From contig OY282385.1 in assembly GCA_958295935.1 (NCBI GenBank), positions 1,178,001 through 1,242,000 of the forward strand: 64,000 nucleotides of DNA, written 5' to 3'. This document shows, in pieces, positions 8,147 to 17,997 of the stretch. The notes beneath the pieces were generated by a model. That model saw only the letters and a list, made by a program, of their open reading frames with translations. It was not told the origin of the DNA and did not search any database. Position numbers and translations under genes: made by a program. Within the stretch, counting starts at the first letter, position 1. The number at the start of each line of letters is the position of its first letter. The stretch comes from an uncultured Dehalococcoidia bacterium. GTDB lineage: Bacteria > Chloroflexota > Dehalococcoidia > Lucifugimonadales > Lucifugimonadaceae.

Positions 8147-9766
8147 ATGACAGCCGAACAAGAAAACCAACCCAAAGACGTACTCGTGATCGGGGCCGGC
8201 GCATCAGGCGCCGCTGTCGCCTGGCGCCTCGCAAAAAGCGGATTCAAAGTGGTTTGCCTTGAACAAGGACCATGGAGACCGCCCGAAGACTACCCCACCA
8301 CGCGCGACGACTGGCAACTCAGGCTCAGAACCGACTGGAGTCTAGACCCAAACGTTCGGAACTTGCCGGAAGACTACCCCGTAAACGATAGCCAGTCCGA
8401 CATCTCGCCGCTCATGTTCAACGCCGTAGGCGGCAGTACCATCCACTGGACCGCACACACGCCGCGCTTCCATCCATCCGACTTCAGGGTGAAATCGCTC
8501 GACGGCGTCGCAGACGATTGGCCCCTCGATTACTACGAACTCGAACCCTGGTACGACCTCAACGACCGCATGATGGGATGCGCCGGCATAGCAGGAGACC
8601 CAGCCAATCCCCCGCGTGCCGAGCGGCCCATGCCCCCCCTGCCACTGGGACCCGACGGAGAGGCCGTCGCAAGAGCTTTCGACTCACTCGACTGGCACTG
8701 GTGGCCATCCGATAGCTACATCAACTCCGTCGAGTACGACGGACGGCAGCCGTGCAACAACTGCGGACCAAACAACCTCGGCTGTACAAGGAAGGCAAAA
8801 GCCTCCGCAGACGTGACGTACCTCCCAAAGGCCATCCAACTCGGCGCGGAAGTACGCGCAGGATGCAGGGTCGCGGAGATAACCATCGGCCCCGATGGAC
8901 AGCCAAACGGCGCCACGTACATAGACCGCAAAGGCAACCGGGCACACCAGACAGCCAACGCCGTCGTCATGGCCGCAAACGGCATTGGAACACCGAGATT
9001 GCTGCTCCTGTCCAGGTCCGACCAACACCCGAACGGACTCGCAAACTCCAGCGGACTCGTGGGAAAGAACCTCATGTTCCACCCATACTCCATAGTCGCA
9101 GGCTTCCTGCCCAATGACCTGCAGAACTATCGGGGACCCCTCGGAAACATGATCATGAGCCAGGAATTCTACGAGACCGACCCCCAGCGAGACTTCGTAC
9201 GCGGATACACCTACCAGGTAGTAAGAAGCACCGGCCCAGCCATAACAGCCATCGGATTCATGGCCCCAAAGGTCAGATGGGGAGAATCACACCACGAGGA
9301 ATTCGCCCTGCGCTTCGGAAAAGGCATAATCATGGCGATCATCTCCGAGGACCTACCCGAACTCCACAACCAGGTGACGCTCGACGAATCCCTCCAAGAC
9401 TCCGACGGAATACCTGCCCCGCGCATCCACTACAAGACCAGCCAAAACACCCGCAAACTCCTCGACCACGGCATCCGAAACGCTGTACGAGTCCTCGATC
9501 GCGCCGGCTCTACCGATACAAGAATCACCCCCCTGTTGAAACCCTCAGGCTGGCACCTCATGGGCACCGCCAGAATGGGCGAAGACCCCGCCGAATCCGT
9601 GGTCGACCGCTGGGGGCAGGCCCATGACGCAGACAACCTATTCATCGTCGACGGAAGCGTCTTCGTCACCTCCGCCGCAGTCAACCCAACGCCCACCATA
9701 CAGGCCCTCGCCCTCCGAACCGCAGACTACATTTGCAACCAGCGCTCAGACCTGAAGAAAACATAA
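8147..9766 (+). CDS. GMC-family FAD-dependent oxidoreductase
   Basis: A 539-aa protein. The ADP-binding loop is VIGAGASGAAVAW (GxGxxG at residues 16-21). The second flavin element is FNAVGGSTIHWTAHTPRF, and the C-terminal GMC domain carries HLMGT (His470) and VNPTPT (Asn513), the usual catalytic pair that removes a proton from an alcohol. The overall type matches the large flavin subunit of gluconate or sorbitol dehydrogenases and 2-keto-acid-producing enzymes. The downstream gene encodes a gluconate-2-dehydrogenase subunit-3-like protein, which supports a two-subunit dehydrogenase. Unlike many periplasmic relatives, no signal peptide or twin-arginine motif precedes the FAD loop, so a cytoplasmic location is likely. 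No cytochrome c subunit is present nearby, so the electron acceptor is unclear. Confidence 0.9.
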   Translation: MTAEQENQPKDVLVIGAGASGAAVAWRLAKSGFKVVCLEQGPWRPPEDYPTTRDDWQLRLRTDWSLDPNVRNLPEDYPVNDSQSDISPLMFNAVGGSTIHWTAHTPRFHPSDFRVKSLDGVADDWPLDYYELEPWYDLNDRMMGCAGIAGDPANPPRAERPMPPLPLGPDGEAVARAFDSLDWHWWPSDSYINSVEYDGRQPCNNCGPNNLGCTRKAKASADVTYLPKAIQLGAEVRAGCRVAEITIGPDGQPNGATYIDRKGNRAHQTANAVVMAANGIGTPRLLLLSRSDQHPNGLANSSGLVGKNLMFHPYSIVAGFLPNDLQNYRGPLGNMIMSQEFYETDPQRDFVRGYTYQVVRSTGPAITAIGFMAPKVRWGESHHEEFALRFGKGIIMAIISEDLPELHNQVTLDESLQDSDGIPAPRIHYKTSQNTRKLLDHGIRNAVRVLDRAGSTDTRITPLLKPSGWHLMGTARMGEDPAESVVDRWGQAHDADNLFIVDGSVFVTSAAVNPTPTIQALALRTADYICNQRSDLKKT

Positions 9767-9828
9767 GCAGGCCACACCGCGAAACGCCAGCCCGGCCGCC
9801 GCGCAGGATTCCAACAGAGCAAAGAAAG

Positions 9829-10296
9829 ATGGCGAACAGCCCAACCTCAGACGATTCCCGCCGTGTAATCCTGCGCGCCGTCATGGATCGCCTCATACCC
9901 GCAGTAGACGACCTGCCGCCTGCCGGAGAGATGGGCTTGGCCGACCAGGTACGGAAGATCGCCGACAGCGTTCCCCGCTACGACGCAGCCCTGTCCACCG
10001 TCCTGGACGCCTTCGCCCTCGACCCCTCGGCAAGAGTTGCCGGCGGTTTCCGCGCCCTCGACGGCGAAACACAGGACAACGCCATACGAGTTATAGAGAA
10101 CTCCCTCCCCGCGCAATTCAGCGTCCTGCTGGAAATCGTATACCTCGCATACTACTCAAGCCCGGACGTACACCAACGCATCGGATGGGCCGGCCGGCCG
10201 CCGCAACCCGAAGGCTTTGAACTGCCGCCCTTCGACGAATCCATCCTCGAAAAGGTCCGCAAACGAAAACCCCTCTGGCGAAAAACAGACCACTAG
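9829..10296 (+). CDS. Gluconate 2-dehydrogenase subunit 3-like protein
   Basis: A 155-aa protein from the ATG at 9829, preceded by AAAGAAAG. The pattern ILRAVMDRLIPAVDD followed by GMEMGLADQV-like sequence (here AGEMGLADQV), and the later AYYSSPDVHQRIGW with a C-terminal PPFDESIL, match the small (gamma) subunit family that pairs with GMC flavoproteins. Known partners carry a Tat signal and pass folded GMC subunits to the periplasm; this one begins directly with the mature-like helix and has no RR-containing hydrophobic leader. It lies 62 nt after the GMC stop and is almost certainly its partner. An earlier in-frame ATG would give a basic leader without membrane character and is rejected. Confidence 0.8.
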   Translation: MANSPTSDDSRRVILRAVMDRLIPAVDDLPPAGEMGLADQVRKIADSVPRYDAALSTVLDAFALDPSARVAGGFRALDGETQDNAIRVIENSLPAQFSVLLEIVYLAYYSSPDVHQRIGWAGRPPQPEGFELPPFDESILEKVRKRKPLWRKTDH

Positions 10297-10676: not shown

Positions 10677-11741
10677 TTAGTCGATCACCGGATCGCGGCG
10701 GGGAGCATCCACCTGATCCGGTCGCAGAGCGATAACCCGCTTCTGATACACCTGAACCCTGAACCGGCCCGAGTCGATCAGATAAACCCGGTCATCAGCC
10801 CCCACCCCCACCGAGGTCGGCTTCTTCAACCTCTTCTCAGGCTCGATGCTAGGCACGTTATCGCGCATCCGCAGCATATCCGGGTTCGCCATCAGCCGAT
10901 CCACCCCGCGCTTGTTGATCGTCGCATCACCCCGAAAAGACTCCACGAACCTACCACGGCTGTTGAACAACTGCACCCGGTTGTTACCCTGGTCGGCAAC
11001 GTAGATGTCCCCGTAGTGATCCACCGTAACCCCGCTCGGGTGGCGAAACTCCCCGTCCCCAGAACCCAAACCGCCGATTACCTGCACAAGCTCCCCTGAG
11101 CGCGTAAAGCGCTGCACCCGGTCGTTACGCCAGTCCGCAACCAACACGTCCCCGCTGAAAGGATCCAGGCTCAGCCCCCACGGGTGATCGAGTTGGCCCG
11201 GCTCACTGCCGAACTCACCCCAGCCGCCCAGGTATTCACCCTCCCTGGTGAACTGCTGCACGCGATGATTCGACGAGTCCACTATCCAAAGGTTCTCATC
11301 CTCATCCAACCTGATGCCGGCCGGCCCGGCGAACTGGCCCGGCCCCTCACCCTTCTCGCCCCATCGCCCGACTCGCTTGCCGTCCATGTCGTAGACGCAC
11401 ACGTTGTCCGCCCAGTCGTCCGTTATGTAGAAGAGCCCCTGGCTATCGAGAGCGATGCCAACCGCCCAAGGCTGCTCGTCCTCACGATAGTTGAACTCGC
11501 CCTGGTACTCGTCGTCCTGCGGAAGACACTTCGTCACCCGCCAGAAATCAAACGGCGTCGTAGCACGATTCAGCACGTACAACATCCCATCCGGCCCTAT
11601 CGCCATGTCCAGCGGCCCGTAGAAGCCCGTCGGCGACATGATCGCCCCCAACGTCCGCTCGTACACGTGACCGATGCGCAACAGCACCGGCGGCTCCGTC
11701 CCCCTGATCACACGCTGATGAGTTTCCTGCTCAGTGGCCAT
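10677..11741 (-). CDS. NHL-repeat beta-propeller protein
   Basis: A 354-aa protein made almost entirely of NHL-type blades. The repeated signature is GPAGIRLDEDENLWIVDSSN followed by HRVQQF, then HPWGLSLDPFSGDVLVADWR with RVQRF, then HPSGVTVDHYGDIYVADQGN with RVQLF, and two or three degenerate blades. It would fold as a six-bladed propeller used for protein, RNA or ligand binding; some relatives are peptidyl-alpha-hydroxyglycine lyases. There is no signal peptide. It begins MATEQ, as does the ankyrin protein just upstream, and their 5' flanks are nearly identical. The cluster order is DUF1800, DUF1501, ankyrin, NHL, all on the minus strand. Confidence 0.88.
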   Translation of the reverse strand: MATEQETHQRVIRGTEPPVLLRIGHVYERTLGAIMSPTGFYGPLDMAIGPDGMLYVLNRATTPFDFWRVTKCLPQDDEYQGEFNYREDEQPWAVGIALDSQGLFYITDDWADNVCVYDMDGKRVGRWGEKGEGPGQFAGPAGIRLDEDENLWIVDSSNHRVQQFTREGEYLGGWGEFGSEPGQLDHPWGLSLDPFSGDVLVADWRNDRVQRFTRSGELVQVIGGLGSGDGEFRHPSGVTVDHYGDIYVADQGNNRVQLFNSRGRFVESFRGDATINKRGVDRLMANPDMLRMRDNVPSIEPEKRLKKPTSVGVGADDRVYLIDSGRFRVQVYQKRVIALRPDQVDAPRRDPVID

Positions 11742-11783
11742 CGCTTCTACCTCCGCAATGAGTCTGATGGCGGGATCTTTCCG

Positions 11784-13742
11784 TCATGATGTACCTAGAT
11801 TTTCAGCAACCTTGCCGATGGCGCGAGCCGTCTCTTCATGGCCGCGTACCGCCGCCCATTCCACAGGTCTGGCGCCATTGTTGGCCCTTGCATTAGGATC
11901 AGCGCCCCCTGAGATGAGCGCAAGAGCCGTTTCAGTGTGGCCCTCACCACCCGCCATGTGCAGAGGCGTGGCGCCATCCTCGGCCCTCCTTACGCTAGGG
12001 TCTGAGCCCTCCGCGACGAGCGCAAGAGCCGTTTCGGTTTGACCTTCCGCAGCCGCAAAGTGCAGAGGCGTAGCTCCCTCGTTGGCCCTTGCGTTGGGGT
12101 CTGAGCCCTTCCCAATGAGCGCAAGTGCCGTTTCGGTATGGCCGCCTGCACCAACCGCCCAGTGCAGAGGCGTAAAGCCCCCCTCATCTCTTACGTTAGG
12201 GCCTGAGCCATTCGCTACGAGCGCAAGCGCCGTTTCGGTTTGACCTTTCATAGCCGCCATGTGCAAAGGCGTAGCGCCATAGTTATCACTCGCGTTGGGG
12301 TCAGATCCCTCTGAGATGAGCGCAAGTGCGGTTTCGGTATCGCCCTCACCAACCGCCAGGTGCAGAGGAGTAACTCCCCCGTCGGCCATTGCGTTGGGAT
12401 CTGAGCCCGCTGCGACGAGTGCAAGCGCCGTTTCGGCTTGACCTCTCATAGCCGCCAAGTGCAGAGGAGTAACTCCCCTGTCGGCCATTGCGTTGGGGTC
12501 AGCCCGCCTACGCCAAAGCCTACGGATACCCCTAGGCCCGTCGGCCATTGCGTTGGGGTCAGCCCCTGCTGAGATGAGTGCAAGCGCCGTTTCGGTCTCG
12601 CCCTCACTAGCCGCCACGTGTAGAGGCGTAAAGCCATCGTCGGCCCCTGCATTGGAATCAGCGCCCTCTGCAATGAGCGCAAGCGCGGTTTCAGTATGGC
12701 CTCTAATAGCCGCCAAGTGCAGAGGCGTAGCGCCATCGTCGGCCATTGCATTGAAATCTGCGCCATCTGAGATGAGCGCAAGCGCAGTTTCGATTTGACT
12801 TTCCATATCCGCCCATTCCAAAAGCGTAAGGCTATCGTCGTCTATTGCGTTGGGGTCTGCGCCCGCTGAGATGAGCGCAAGAACGGTTTCAGTATGGCCT
12901 CCCATAGCCGCCCGGTGCAGAGGCGTATAACCATTCTCATTTCTTACATTGGGGTCCGCGCACTTCGCGATGAGCGCAAGAGCGGTTGCGGTATGGCCGT
13001 TATTAGCCGCCTCGTGCAGAGACGTCGTGCCACCGTCGCGCCTTGCGTTGGGGTCTGCTCCTTTCGCGATGAGCGCAAGAGCTGTTTCAGTATGGCCCCC
13101 CACAGCCACCCAGTGCAGAGGCGTAGAGCCATCGTCGGCCCGTGCATTGGAATCAGCACCCGCTGCGACGAGCGCAAGAGCTGTTTCAGTATGGCCCCCC
13201 ACAGCCGCCCGGTGCAGAGGCGTAACGCCATCGTCGGCCGTTGCGTTCGGGTCTGAGCCTCCTGAGATAAGCGCAAGCGCGGTCGCAGTATGGCCTTTCC
13301 AAGCCGCCACGTGCAGAGGCGTAGCACCATCGTCGGCTCTTGCGTTGGGGCCCGCGCTCTTCGCGATGAGCGCAAGCGCGGTCGCAGTATGGCCCTTATT
13401 AGCCGCCTCGTGCAGAGGCGTAAAGCCACTGTCGGCCCGTGCGTTGGGGCTCGCGCCCTTCGCGATGAGCGCAAGAGCCATTTCGGTATGGCCCGACATA
13501 GCCATCACATGCAGAGGCGTAAAGCCGCCGTCGGCCCGTGCATTGGAATCAGCGCCCCCTGAGATGAGCGCAAGAACGGTTTCCGTGTGGCCTCTACCAG
13601 CCGCCCAGTGCAGAGGCGTAAAGCTTTTGTCGGCCCTTGCGTTGGGGTCTGCTCCTTTCGCGATAAGCGCAAGAACGGTTTCGGTTTGACCGTTCGCAGC
13701 CGCCAAGTGCAGTTGTCCGCTAGCTTTCTGCTCAGTGGCCAT
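11784..13742 (-). CDS. Ankyrin-repeat protein, about 19 tandem repeats
   Basis: A 652-aa protein. After MATEQKASG the whole chain is ankyrin repeats of 33 residues, each with TPLH, GHTETALALI and GADPNARAD blocks. I count 19, the first and last being capping half-repeats, and repeats 16 and 17 each have one extra residue. Repeat 12 carries a 20-residue in-frame insertion (GPRGIRRLWRRRADPNAMAD) caused by a 60-bp duplication-like event. The DNA repeats are about 99 bp and very similar, so the array probably expands and contracts. There is no signal peptide, membrane segment or catalytic domain. Long ankyrin proteins are common in sponge- and host-associated bacteria, where some act on host cells; that role here is only a possibility. 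The NHL gene follows 42 nt downstream. Confidence 0.92.
   Translation of the reverse strand: MATEQKASGQLHLAAANGQTETVLALIAKGADPNARADKSFTPLHWAAGRGHTETVLALISGGADSNARADGGFTPLHVMAMSGHTEMALALIAKGASPNARADSGFTPLHEAANKGHTATALALIAKSAGPNARADDGATPLHVAAWKGHTATALALISGGSDPNATADDGVTPLHRAAVGGHTETALALVAAGADSNARADDGSTPLHWVAVGGHTETALALIAKGADPNARRDGGTTSLHEAANNGHTATALALIAKCADPNVRNENGYTPLHRAAMGGHTETVLALISAGADPNAIDDDSLTLLEWADMESQIETALALISDGADFNAMADDGATPLHLAAIRGHTETALALIAEGADSNAGADDGFTPLHVAASEGETETALALISAGADPNAMADGPRGIRRLWRRRADPNAMADRGVTPLHLAAMRGQAETALALVAAGSDPNAMADGGVTPLHLAVGEGDTETALALISEGSDPNASDNYGATPLHMAAMKGQTETALALVANGSGPNVRDEGGFTPLHWAVGAGGHTETALALIGKGSDPNARANEGATPLHFAAAEGQTETALALVAEGSDPSVRRAEDGATPLHMAGGEGHTETALALISGGADPNARANNGARPVEWAAVRGHEETARAIGKVAENLGTS
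12480..12565. repeat. 60-bp direct duplication within the ankyrin array
   Basis: A 26-bp sequence at 12480-12505 is repeated exactly at 12540-12565, with a 34-bp unrelated stretch between the copies. The 60-bp offset is a multiple of 3 but not of the 99-bp ankyrin unit. It therefore inserts 20 residues, including the basic RRLWRRR, without breaking the frame. Confidence 0.85.
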
Positions 13743-13778
13743 GGCTTCTGCCTCCGCGACCCCCTGCCCGCCCGTGCT

Positions 13779-14975
13779 TCACGCCGCTGCCGGCCGATCG
13801 AGCATCCCCTCGAACTGCTCGAACGTTCCGTTCACTATCGGCGCAGGGCTAATGTTCATCCACTGGTCGAGAATCGAGGAGTAGAGAGAACGAAAGTCGT
13901 TGTTGAAGCGCAAGTCCCCGTCCAGCTGCTCATCCGGGTCCAGCGAAGGATATTGGCCGTACAGCCCCCCTCTCACGCGCTCGCCGATGAGCAAGGCTCC
14001 GCCCCCCGATCCGTGGTCCGTGCCGCCCCCGTTGTCCCTGATCCGCCGCCCGAATTCCGAGAACACCATCATCGTCACGTTGTCCGCCGCCCCGTGCTCG
14101 CGCAGGTCGGCAAAGAAATCCGTAACCGCACGAGACACCTTCCGCCACAGATCAGGCTGAACCTTGTTCTCCAGCGCGTGAACGTCGAACCCCCCGATGT
14201 TGGCGTAGAAGATACGCGTCCCCAGCCCAGCCAGGTGCACCTGCGCTATACCTCGCAGGCTCTGAGCAAGCTGCTCGTCCGCGTACTCAACCGACGACGT
14301 ATAGCCCTCCGGCGCCGACCGCAGCAGAGCAGCCCCTTCCAGCGCATACTGGCCGGTCTGACCCAGGTGGTTCAGGATCATGCTCGCCTCCGACGTCTCC
14401 TCCGGAGCGTACATACGCTCGAATGTCGCGACCGCCTTGCGCTGACGATTGCCCGGCAGGGTAGTCAATAGCCCGTAGCCCTCCAGCTGCGCAACCGCGA
14501 CAACCGGAGTACCCGGCGCAACCATCGCCCTGGGAAGCCCCTGCCCGAACGATACCCCGGTAACCACGTTACGCCTGTCCGGGTCGATCTCCCGGATCGT
14601 GCGGCCCAGCCATCCCTCGCTGGAAAATTTGGTCGGCTCGGCCGTGTGCCAAATGTCCATCGAGCGAAAGTGAGACCGGTCAGGGTTGGGGTACCCGATG
14701 CCCTGCACGATGGCGACCTTCCCGTCATCGTACATATCCTTGATCGGAGCCATCGCCGGATGAAGCCCGATAGCGTTATCGATCTCCAGCAATCGATCCT
14801 CCGCTATACCGGTGTTGGGCCGGTTATCGTAGTAACGCCCGTCCCCGTATGGGATGACCGTGTTCATGAAGTCATTGCCGCCGGATAACTGAAGTACCAC
14901 CAGAGCCGGTTCCCTGGCAGCGCCCCGCCCGTGGCCGTTAGTCGGTTTCATTTCGGTACTCACCTGAGCCTCCAC
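13779..14975 (-). CDS. DUF1501 family protein
   Basis: A 398-aa protein with the DUF1501 landmarks: LVVLQLSGGNDFMNTVIPY (in place of the usual GGxDGLNT), YYDNRPNTGIAEDRLLEID, GIGYPNPDRSHFRSMDIWHT, and the C-terminal VFSEFGRRIRDNGGGTDHG (SEFGR...TDHG). The family is related to alkaline phosphatase/sulfatase folds and is typically encoded next to DUF1800 genes, as here. Its function is not established. Most members start with a Tat signal; this one starts MEAQVSTEMKPTNGHGRG and goes straight into the core, so export is not evident. The annotated start is GTG; an ATG eight codons later (at 14951) is equally possible. Confidence 0.88.
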   Translation of the reverse strand: MEAQVSTEMKPTNGHGRGAAREPALVVLQLSGGNDFMNTVIPYGDGRYYDNRPNTGIAEDRLLEIDNAIGLHPAMAPIKDMYDDGKVAIVQGIGYPNPDRSHFRSMDIWHTAEPTKFSSEGWLGRTIREIDPDRRNVVTGVSFGQGLPRAMVAPGTPVVAVAQLEGYGLLTTLPGNRQRKAVATFERMYAPEETSEASMILNHLGQTGQYALEGAALLRSAPEGYTSSVEYADEQLAQSLRGIAQVHLAGLGTRIFYANIGGFDVHALENKVQPDLWRKVSRAVTDFFADLREHGAADNVTMMVFSEFGRRIRDNGGGTDHGSGGGALLIGERVRGGLYGQYPSLDPDEQLDGDLRFNNDFRSLYSSILDQWMNISPAPIVNGTFEQFEGMLDRPAAA

Positions 14976-15005
14976 TTCTGCTTGCGCAGTCTGGTCGGTT
15001 GTCTA

Positions 15006-15048
15006 TCATTCCCGCGCCCCTATGGATTCCGGCCCCGCGCCTGAATGA
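15006..15048. repeat. Palindromic intergenic repeat between DUF1800 and DUF1501 genes
   Basis: TCATTC (15006-15011) and GAATGA (15043-15048) form the ends, with inner GCGC/GCGC pairs. The core has GGATTCCGG, similar to the repeat near 21958. It resembles the dispersed GGATTCCGGC...GGAATGA palindromes common in bacterial intergenic regions, and lies in the 98-bp gap of a minus-strand cluster. Confidence 0.5.
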
Positions 15049-15073
15049 CGGGCGGAATCGAGGGAAGGGATTC

Positions 15074-16453
15074 TTACTGAAGCTGGAACTCCCGCGATGC
15101 GCCGATCAGGCCGATTACGTCCGACGCAGCCTCACCGAACCTCTCTCGCGCATCGTCGTCATCAAGGCGGAACGTAATATCGCCCCCGAGGTGATCGCGC
15201 AACGCATCAAACGTCCGATCCTCGAGATCCACCCCGCCCACCTCATACGCGCAGGACTCCAGCAACGCGTTCGTCGTCACCTCGGCCCTGTCCGCCGAGA
15301 TCCTCTGCACCATCTGCGCCACGCCCGGATTACGGAGGTCGCCCAGTTTCTCCGCAATGAAATTGACCCGCTCGACCAAACCCGCTGTGTCGATCCACTC
15401 GCCCCCGGTGTGCCAGCCCTCCACCGTAGGAGGATTGAGGAGTGTCTGACCCATCCCCTCCGACGCGCCAGGCAACTTCATCAACCCGTACTCACGGGGC
15501 GTGCGGAACAGCCCGGCAAGCTTGATGGTCGTCGCCACCGTCTCCGAAGGGCTGCGCACCTTCTTGAATCGAGCCTCCTTGAACCAATCGGCGTGGAAAA
15601 GGTGCCGCAAAACACCGCGGATCTCGTAATTCGAGTCAAAGTACGCCTGCGACAGCTCCGCCTCAGCCGACTCGTCCGACGTATCCGACACGAAGAAGTT
15701 GTACAGCTTGCGGCCGATGAACCGGCCGGTTGCCGGGTGGCGAACGATAACGTCGATCACGTCCTCCCCGTCCATAGCCCCATGCTTCCCCAGAAACCTC
15801 TTCACCGATTCGTCGTGATCGTCCTGACGGTACACGAAGTCGGTCTCGTAGAACCCATAAGGATACCGGGGGAGCATCTGCTTGATCGTCCAGCCGGTAA
15901 AAGCGCGGGCGCACTCCTTGACGTCGTCCTCCGTGTAGTTCCCTACGCCCATGCTGAACAACTCCAGCAATTCGCGCCCGTAGTTCTCGTTCGGCGCGTC
16001 CGCGTGGTTCGTATGGTTGTCCAACCAGTAGATCATCGCCGGATCACGGGACAGGTTCACCAGAAGATCCCGAAAATTCCCCAGCCCATAGTCGCGGAAC
16101 ATGTCGATCTGGGACGCCATCCAGGTGTTGATCGTCACCTTCGCACTGCCCGTGGCGAAGATGCCGTGCCACATCAGCGCCGCCTTCTCCTCCAGCGGTC
16201 TGAGGCTGTTGACCATGCGGTAGAACCACCGGGCCGCGGTCATTTCCCCGCTGCGGAAATGCACCATGTCGAAGTGGTACCGCTCGAACAGGTCCTCGAC
16301 AGGACGCTCGAAACGTTCGGGATGCAGCAGGTCGTCCACCACCGCCTCATACCCGCGCTTGGCCAGAGCCTCCAGCTCCGCAGCAGATGCGCCAAACGCA
16401 GCTCGGCGCATGAGATGACCCATAAGGGCAACGTCGTCAGACATGGCGCACAC
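15074..16453 (-). CDS. DUF1800 family protein
   Basis: A 459-aa protein. The N-terminus has MGHLMRRAAFGASAAELEAL, matching the usual HLLRRAGFG opening of DUF1800. Further marks are FYRMVNSLRPLEEKAALMWH, MASQIDMFRDYGLGNFRDLL, WLDNHTNHADAPNENYGREL followed by LELFSMGVGNYTEDDVKECA, and a C-terminal GQTLLNPPTVEGWHTGGEWI. DUF1800 proteins co-occur with DUF1501 proteins across environmental bacteria and may form a complex; no activity is known. No signal peptide precedes the first conserved helix. Met4 (MSDDVAL) is an alternative start. It is the promoter-proximal gene of the minus-strand cluster, and the upstream 455-bp gap holds a perfect palindrome. Confidence 0.9.
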   Translation of the reverse strand: MCAMSDDVALMGHLMRRAAFGASAAELEALAKRGYEAVVDDLLHPERFERPVEDLFERYHFDMVHFRSGEMTAARWFYRMVNSLRPLEEKAALMWHGIFATGSAKVTINTWMASQIDMFRDYGLGNFRDLLVNLSRDPAMIYWLDNHTNHADAPNENYGRELLELFSMGVGNYTEDDVKECARAFTGWTIKQMLPRYPYGFYETDFVYRQDDHDESVKRFLGKHGAMDGEDVIDVIVRHPATGRFIGRKLYNFFVSDTSDESAEAELSQAYFDSNYEIRGVLRHLFHADWFKEARFKKVRSPSETVATTIKLAGLFRTPREYGLMKLPGASEGMGQTLLNPPTVEGWHTGGEWIDTAGLVERVNFIAEKLGDLRNPGVAQMVQRISADRAEVTTNALLESCAYEVGGVDLEDRTFDALRDHLGGDITFRLDDDDARERFGEAASDVIGLIGASREFQLQ

Positions 16454-16908: not shown

Positions 16909-17997
16909 ATGAAAATCACGGACATCACAAGCCATCTGCTCAACACCGGCAGAATGCTCATTCGGATCTACACCGACGCCGGCATCGTCGGCCTTGCAGA
17001 GGCCAACGGCAGAAACCCGGGCGTCGTGCAGGCCTACGTCGACGAGTCGATCAAGCCCGCGCTCCTCGGCAAGGACCCCAGGCCCGTGGAACGTCACTGG
17101 GAGTCCCTCGTTCTCAGCGCCGGGGACAGCGTTAACCGCGTGCCCACGTTCATCGCCGCGTCTATCGACATAGCCCTTTGGGACATAACGGGCAAGGCGG
17201 CCGGCAGACCCCTGTATGAGCTCCTGGGCGGCGCTTCCAGAACCGCTATTCCCATGTACTGGAGCAGCGGAAACGGGTGGAACAAGACGCCGGAGCAGAT
17301 GCTGGACCGAGTAAAACAAGGCTGGGAGGAGGGCTTCCGCGCCTTCAAGATACGCATGGACTGGCGTTCCACCCGCCAGGACGCCGATCCCGAGAAGGAC
17401 TTCCGGATGTTCAGGCTGTGCAGAGAGTTTCTCCCGCCGGAGATACCGCTGGGCTTCGACGCCAACAACGGATACTCGGTCAGTACCGCCATCACTCAGG
17501 GCCGAAAATTCGAAGACCTCGGCATCGCCCACTTCGAAGAGCCTCTGCCGCAGTATGATTTGCCCGGTCTAAGGCAGGTGGTAGACGCCCTCGACGTAGC
17601 AGTCTCAACCGGAGAGCAAGAGCAGACCCGATGGCGCTTCCGTGACCTTATCGACCTGGCCAACCCGGACATCCTTCAGCCCGACGTCCTCATCGCCGGA
17701 GGAGTCTCCGAAATACGAAAGATCTACGAACTAGCGATTGCCCACAACAAGGTCGTGATGCCGCACAGCCCCACCGCGGGACTCAACAGCATGGCCAGCC
17801 TGCACGTATACTCCACCGTGACCAACGCGGTACGCCCCCACGAATACTCGAACGAGTTCTCGGGAGACCCCCAGCAGGTGCAAGACCTATTCAACGAACC
17901 CGTGCTGCCGGTGGATGGCGTAATGCATCTCTCCAAAGCTCCGGGCCTTGGCCTGACACTCGATGAAAAGGCCGTTCGAAAAGCCATCCTCCACTAA
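16909..17997 (+). CDS. Enolase-superfamily enzyme (mandelate racemase/muconate lactonizing type), paralogue 2
   Basis: A 362-aa protein. The capping domain ends in ALWDITGKAAGRPLYELLGG. In the barrel the catalytic Lys sits in FKIRM (K147-x-R149), and the metal ligands are GFDANN (D184), HFEEP (E210) and STGEQ (E236). MPHSPT (His286) is the general acid/base. This Lys/His, Asp-Glu-Glu layout belongs to the mandelate racemase subgroup, unlike paralogue 1, which has Glu-x-His. Reactions in this subgroup include racemisation and dehydration of hydroxy acids and sugar acids; the substrate is unknown. It is followed about 200 bp later by two VOC genes that may share its pathway. The upstream region holds an operator-like palindrome. 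Confidence 0.87.
   Translation: MKITDITSHLLNTGRMLIRIYTDAGIVGLAEANGRNPGVVQAYVDESIKPALLGKDPRPVERHWESLVLSAGDSVNRVPTFIAASIDIALWDITGKAAGRPLYELLGGASRTAIPMYWSSGNGWNKTPEQMLDRVKQGWEEGFRAFKIRMDWRSTRQDADPEKDFRMFRLCREFLPPEIPLGFDANNGYSVSTAITQGRKFEDLGIAHFEEPLPQYDLPGLRQVVDALDVAVSTGEQEQTRWRFRDLIDLANPDILQPDVLIAGGVSEIRKIYELAIAHNKVVMPHSPTAGLNSMASLHVYSTVTNAVRPHEYSNEFSGDPQQVQDLFNEPVLPVDGVMHLSKAPGLGLTLDEKAVRKAILH

Follow-up and report, generated by a model that had tools for sequence, protein, structure and literature searches.

A conserved DUF1800-DUF1501-NHL gene trio without export signals in SAR202-type Chloroflexota

The genes for a DUF1800 protein, a DUF1501 protein and an NHL beta-propeller are a conserved, operon-like unit of three genes in SAR202-type Chloroflexota, which excludes the ankyrin-repeat gene found between two of them at one locus. 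On balance we favor the reading that the trio is a cytoplasmic three-protein unit with DUF1501 as a hydrolase, which would have been amplified into paralogs and joined at one locus by the ankyrin gene as a later entrant. The locus was analyzed in a window of 64,000 nucleotides from an uncultured Dehalococcoidia bacterium with a genome of 2.75 Mb in a single contig; its nearest named relatives are Dehalococcoidia/SAR202-type Chloroflexota.

All four open reading frames are present on the minus strand, in the order that an earlier note on this DNA had given, and their Pfam matches lie well above cut-off. The DUF1800 gene (15074..16453; PF08811, 3e-102, 343 bits versus a gathering cut-off of 26.1, model positions 1-419) is the first of the trio and has six copies in the genome. 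It is followed by the DUF1501 gene (13779..14975; PF07394, 3e-24, 86.3 bits versus a gathering cut-off of 27, positions 3-342), the ankyrin gene (11784..13742; Ank_2, 1.5e-125) and, as third member of the trio, the NHL gene (10677..11741; PF01436, 6e-32, 108.6 bits versus a cut-off of 20). Upstream purine-rich sites make ATG 16444 the likelier start of the DUF1800 gene and GTG 14963 that of the DUF1501 gene. The intergenic gaps measure, in gene order, about 98, 36 and 42 bp. No terminator-like site was detected between the four genes (the sole match is inside the NHL gene), and the number of such sites is below the shuffle expectation; a scan for promoters brought no informative result. Downstream lies a tRNA-Gly gene, across which the trio is faced by a GMC oxidoreductase gene and an overlapping gluconate 2-dehydrogenase subunit 3-like gene (8147-10296, plus strand). 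On the other side, a mandelate racemase/enolase-family gene (16909-17997) is divergent from the DUF1800 gene; this family is among those reported to be expanded in SAR202.

Trio copies reach about nine per genome in SAR202-type Chloroflexota. The source genome contains six DUF1800-DUF1501 pairs, each adjacent on one strand, and the pair is directly followed by an NHL gene of matching type at four of the five other loci (L013, L014, L015 and L017); at the fifth, L016, it is 4.7 kb away, past a restriction-modification-like block. Among 80 DUF1501 loci from other genomes, which were retrieved with the trio's own DUF1501 and are therefore biased toward the trio, NHL was present in 76 and DUF1800 in 75. 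The order was DUF1800-DUF1501-NHL in 57 loci and DUF1501-DUF1800-NHL in 10, while a few had other orders or extra copies; variable internal order with retained membership is the pattern expected of a functional unit. Some loci carry two or three tandem NHL genes after a single DUF1800 gene, and some carry DUF1800 and NHL without DUF1501 (L173:1526-7440 and L172:3055-6676, L172 being an example of the latter). The trio-clade DUF1501s of L052, L065, L068 and L105 have neither DUF1800 nor NHL beside them and group together in the tree.

Two genome surveys covered loci that were not chosen by their neighborhood. In 31 related genomes, a trio-type NHL gene was located within 6 kb of a trio-type DUF1501 gene in 86 of 93 cases, always on the same strand (86/86) and at a median gap of 74 bp. 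The 93 DUF1501 and 110 NHL matches fell into the same 21 genomes, and both were absent from the same 10. DUF1501 genes without a nearby NHL were accordingly few (4/80 loci and 7/93 in the relatives), and at least four of the seven reach a contig end. When 60 genomes were sampled evenly across the class, five contained trio-type DUF1800 (E <1e-160); the same five contained full-length trio-type NHL (E <1e-79), and the copy numbers of both agreed (6, 3, 2, 2 and 1). Another 15 genomes had a more distant DUF1800 and none of these had a trio-type NHL. The linkage of DUF1800, DUF1501 and NHL, which the earlier note had only inferred, is thus strongly conserved. The search for the gene order in relatives, set beforehand as a check, recovered the trio but not a four-gene unit, the ankyrin gene being absent from all relatives examined.

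Pairwise distances of the DUF1800, DUF1501 and NHL proteins correlate with each other (r 0.81-0.82, 43 trios), and every trio member falls into one clade of the DUF1501 tree (SH-aLRT 99), to which sequences from records labeled Caldilineaceae and Candidatus Entotheonella also belong. The six DUF1501 copies of the source genome are scattered through this clade, indicating that the paralogs are old. A conserved neighborhood within one clade can also stem from co-inheritance. Fusion proteins were considered as proof of a complex and rejected: no fusions among trio members were found, and the long open frames proved to be overlapping frames.

The ankyrin protein was regarded in the earlier note as a 19-repeat scaffold belonging to the same system. 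The count is correct, with 19 repeat anchors spaced mostly by 33 residues, but no other trio locus examined has the gene. It is missing from the source genome's five other trios, from the 76 NHL-bearing loci of other genomes, from the G071 loci and from the nearest orthologous loci, among them the five closest that have all three trio genes. The ankyrin gene lies outside the conserved unit and is probably a lineage-specific interloper that arrived late at this locus. Its start and that of the NHL gene share a near-identical block of 33 bp comprising the ribosome-binding site and the first codons (GCGGAGGCAGAAGCCATGGCCACTGAGCAGAAA at 13725..13757 for ankyrin and GCGGAGGTAGAAGCGATGGCCACTGAGCAGGAA at 11724..11756 for NHL, both minus strand), and with up to three mismatches this pattern occurs only at these two sites in the 2.75-Mb genome. 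The shared leaders proposed earlier are therefore real for these two of the four genes. Because the NHL proteins of relatives begin alike (MTTTQEP, MTTAEKP), the leader probably originated at the NHL gene and reached the ankyrin gene later. The ankyrin gene would have joined one trio copy through a duplicated start region of the NHL gene; the trio would not need it.

A complex of all four proteins with ankyrin as a second scaffold could be imagined from the single strand, the gaps of 36 and 42 bp and the translation start common to ankyrin and NHL; the ankyrin frame is moreover intact over 19 repeats and hence probably expressed. The absence of the gene from all other trios of the source genome and from all relatives examined makes this arrangement quite improbable, and the position it occupies evidently tolerates inserts: in the paralogous locus L016 the same gap is filled by an unrelated, type III-like restriction-modification block. 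This block (L016:12095-16684, genome 2,538,095-2,542,684) holds a DNA methylase, a ResIII-type helicase and small genes between DUF1501 and NHL. A methyltransferase-like gene is found between DUF1800 and DUF1501 in two other loci (L048:6858-7661 and L049:7155-7958).

As to where the ankyrin gene came from, a foreign origin was rejected on composition, its G+C of 0.612 being that of the neighboring genes. One further ankyrin protein was identified in the genome, an acyltransferase-3 membrane protein whose repeats lie in mid-protein (L122:2153-4006); it offers no simple source for the 19-repeat array. The similarity to Dot/Icm ankyrin effectors (AnkH and others) is one of repeats only, at 186 bits versus an equivalog cut-off of 600. 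Within the array, GPRGIRRLWRRR (12490-12560) interrupts the repeat pattern and resembles the scar of a repeat-to-repeat rearrangement.

The absence of export signals from the four-gene locus, pointed out in the earlier note, was borne out by a scan for motifs and hydrophobicity, and it turned out to be a trait of the whole trio clade instead of an oddity of the window locus. No Tat motif or hydrophobic leader was found in any of 89 trio-clade DUF1501s with every upstream start allowed, whereas DUF1501s outside the clade had a twin-arginine motif in 22 of 24 cases and a hydrophobic stretch in 18 of 24. This outside group (18 from Chloroflexota and six plasmid-borne from other phyla) served as positive control for the scan, which is not a trained predictor. 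In the source genome, a hydrophobic or twin-arginine leader upstream of the conserved domains is absent from all six DUF1501s and all six DUF1800s, again with all alternative starts allowed, and the seven NHL matches have no hydrophobic leader (0/7) and a bare RR motif in one. Across the 89 trio DUF1501s, 84 DUF1800s and 91 NHL matches, no leaders were seen other than two doubtful upstream extensions of DUF1800. Signal absence in DUF1800 alone is weak evidence, since only about half of the DUF1800s outside the clade have a visible leader.

Pairs of DUF1800 with a Tat-motif DUF1501 have been described next to bacterial chitin synthases (PMC5122149). The Tat-exported pairs of Proteobacteria, Actinomycetota, Bacteroidota and other Chloroflexota (PMC5122149) resemble the trio in their protein families, their adjacency and order, and the conserved DUF1501 residues. 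The trio differs from them in lacking the Tat leader, in its NHL gene, in forming a separate single clade and in its many copies per genome; no trio-type NHL neighbor was found beside the outside-clade pairs. We propose that the outside pairs would act beyond the membrane through Tat export of DUF1501. In the trio clade, the Tat leader would have been lost and an NHL gene is present, which suggests that the pair works on compounds already inside the cell. Alternatively, the trio might still reach the outside by another route (with a partner, by a leaderless system or by lysis) and function there like its relatives. Such a route would fit the Tat motifs of the outside-clade homologs (22/24 here; PMC5122149) and the putative DUF1501 active sites, which are kept alike in the exported and the cytoplasmic forms. 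Leaders are missing from all three proteins apart from the two doubtful extensions, however, and the trios show no recurrent neighboring secretion gene, so that we regard this route as unlikely.

A cytoplasmic unit with a catalytic DUF1501 is consistent with the predicted structure of this protein (pLDDT 87), and the data support assigning its fold to the alkaline phosphatase superfamily. The model matched 507 chains at Z of at least 5, the best being the Xac NPP (Z 19.2 over 243 residues, 3.2 A, 14% identity). Sulfatases were the top Foldseek matches, while NPP phosphodiesterases ranked first after structural realignment, closely followed by PafA. The likeness to this superfamily is one of fold; identities are about 8-15% in the alignments listed, no sequence relatives of DUF1501 were found in the PDB, and no Pfam sulfatase or phosphodiesterase family matched at E up to 5. 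Eight polar residues that would suit a metal site (D35, S101, H102, D264, H266, E307, D320 and H321) do not vary among 57 aligned trio DUF1501s and hardly vary among the 24 distant outside-clade members. Its place in the residue order and in the secondary structure, at the start of the helix that succeeds the second strand, makes S101 the likely candidate for the nucleophile. DUF1501 would accordingly be the catalytic subunit, possibly a metal-dependent phospho- or sulfo-ester hydrolase.

The model of DUF1800 (pLDDT 89.9) is mostly helical. Solved relatives were sought and rejected: comparison with the PDB by sequence and by fold (Foldseek and VIA) yielded nothing meaningful, and no match exceeded Z 5.1. 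Its only clear fold match was the model of a DUF1800 protein from a phage data set (TM 0.71), a sign that the model agrees with the rest of the family. PSD1 and PSD2 domains are neighbors of DUF1501 in Planctomycetes, and two DUF1800 relatives gave a PSD1/PSD2 match below cut-off (E 0.03-0.08). The NHL protein scored 153.7 bits against the scytonemin protein ScyF model (NF035926), short of the equivalog cut-off of 350. DUF1800 would be the dedicated partner of DUF1501 and may bring a second active site, and the NHL propeller would bind the substrate or keep the complex together. The two DUF proteins could instead have regulatory or structural roles and no enzymatic one, the propeller serving as sensor; our search of the open-access literature returned no function and no demonstrated activity for either family, and DUF1800 matches no enzyme fold. 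We consider this improbable in view of the eight DUF1501 residues and their near-invariance even in distant members.

DUF1501 clusters are also known from Planctomycetes, Verrucomicrobia and relatives, where several of the proteins have signal peptides (PMC4452313) and DUF1501 lies near WD40 genes (PMC5587647). They share with the trio a DUF1501 gene near a propeller gene; the PSD1/PSD2 match of the two DUF1800 relatives would be a further parallel but is weak and below cut-off. The clusters differ from the trio in those signal peptides and in a propeller of another family.

The genes around the trios were examined by neighbor-gene clustering and by Pfam and PADLOC scans of 124 flanking genes. 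No recurrent family emerged as a fourth conserved partner, and none that would name a substrate. A HEPN-domain gene follows the trio in one subclade (L017:8800-9141 with a neighboring frame, L080, L095, L119, L123, L151, L154 and L156), mostly together with a degenerate nucleotidyltransferase-like gene as an MNT-HEPN-like pair, and a Vsr/methylase-like cluster follows the DUF1501 of L068. Together with the restriction-modification-like block inside L016 and a GmrSD gene after the trio of L013, the HEPN pairs might be taken to mark the trio as a defense or conflict system. This reading is highly improbable to us: DUF1800, DUF1501 and NHL had no match in PADLOC-DB 2023 at E up to 0.001, the 12 defense models found among the 124 flanking genes each matched one protein only, and the flanks consist mostly of varied catabolic enzymes.

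Under the favored reading of a cytoplasmic three-protein unit, amplification would have yielded many diverged paralogs, six in the source genome, probably for different substrates. Turnover of resistant organic matter is a process with which SAR202-type bacteria have been associated, and SAR202 strains have been brought into culture (PMC10444878). One could go further and picture an intracellular SAR202-type complex in which DUF1800, a fold without solved relatives, contributes its own chemistry and, with DUF1501 and the propeller, opens resistant dissolved organic compounds, one per paralogous trio; this we put forward only as a tentative possibility that is more doubtful than the unit itself. 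The corresponding orthologous groups are COG3391 (a YncE-like beta-propeller), COG4102 (DUF1501) and COG5267 (DUF1800). The sections of Saw et al. (2020; PMC6946804) that concern these groups list them among the 50 most abundant COGs in SAR202-type bacteria and name them together as correlated, abundant and uncharacterized families. The grouping parallels the trio, but the families are treated there as separate, and those sections do not mention an operon, missing signals or a single clade. In the open-access literature we found no account of the trio as an operon or of its missing signals, in line with the earlier view of the system as possibly undescribed. Recognizing a single signal-less, co-inherited unit that includes a propeller merges three unknowns into one complex open to testing, and comparing the pair that has a Tat signal with the trio that lacks one offers a natural way toward the substrate.
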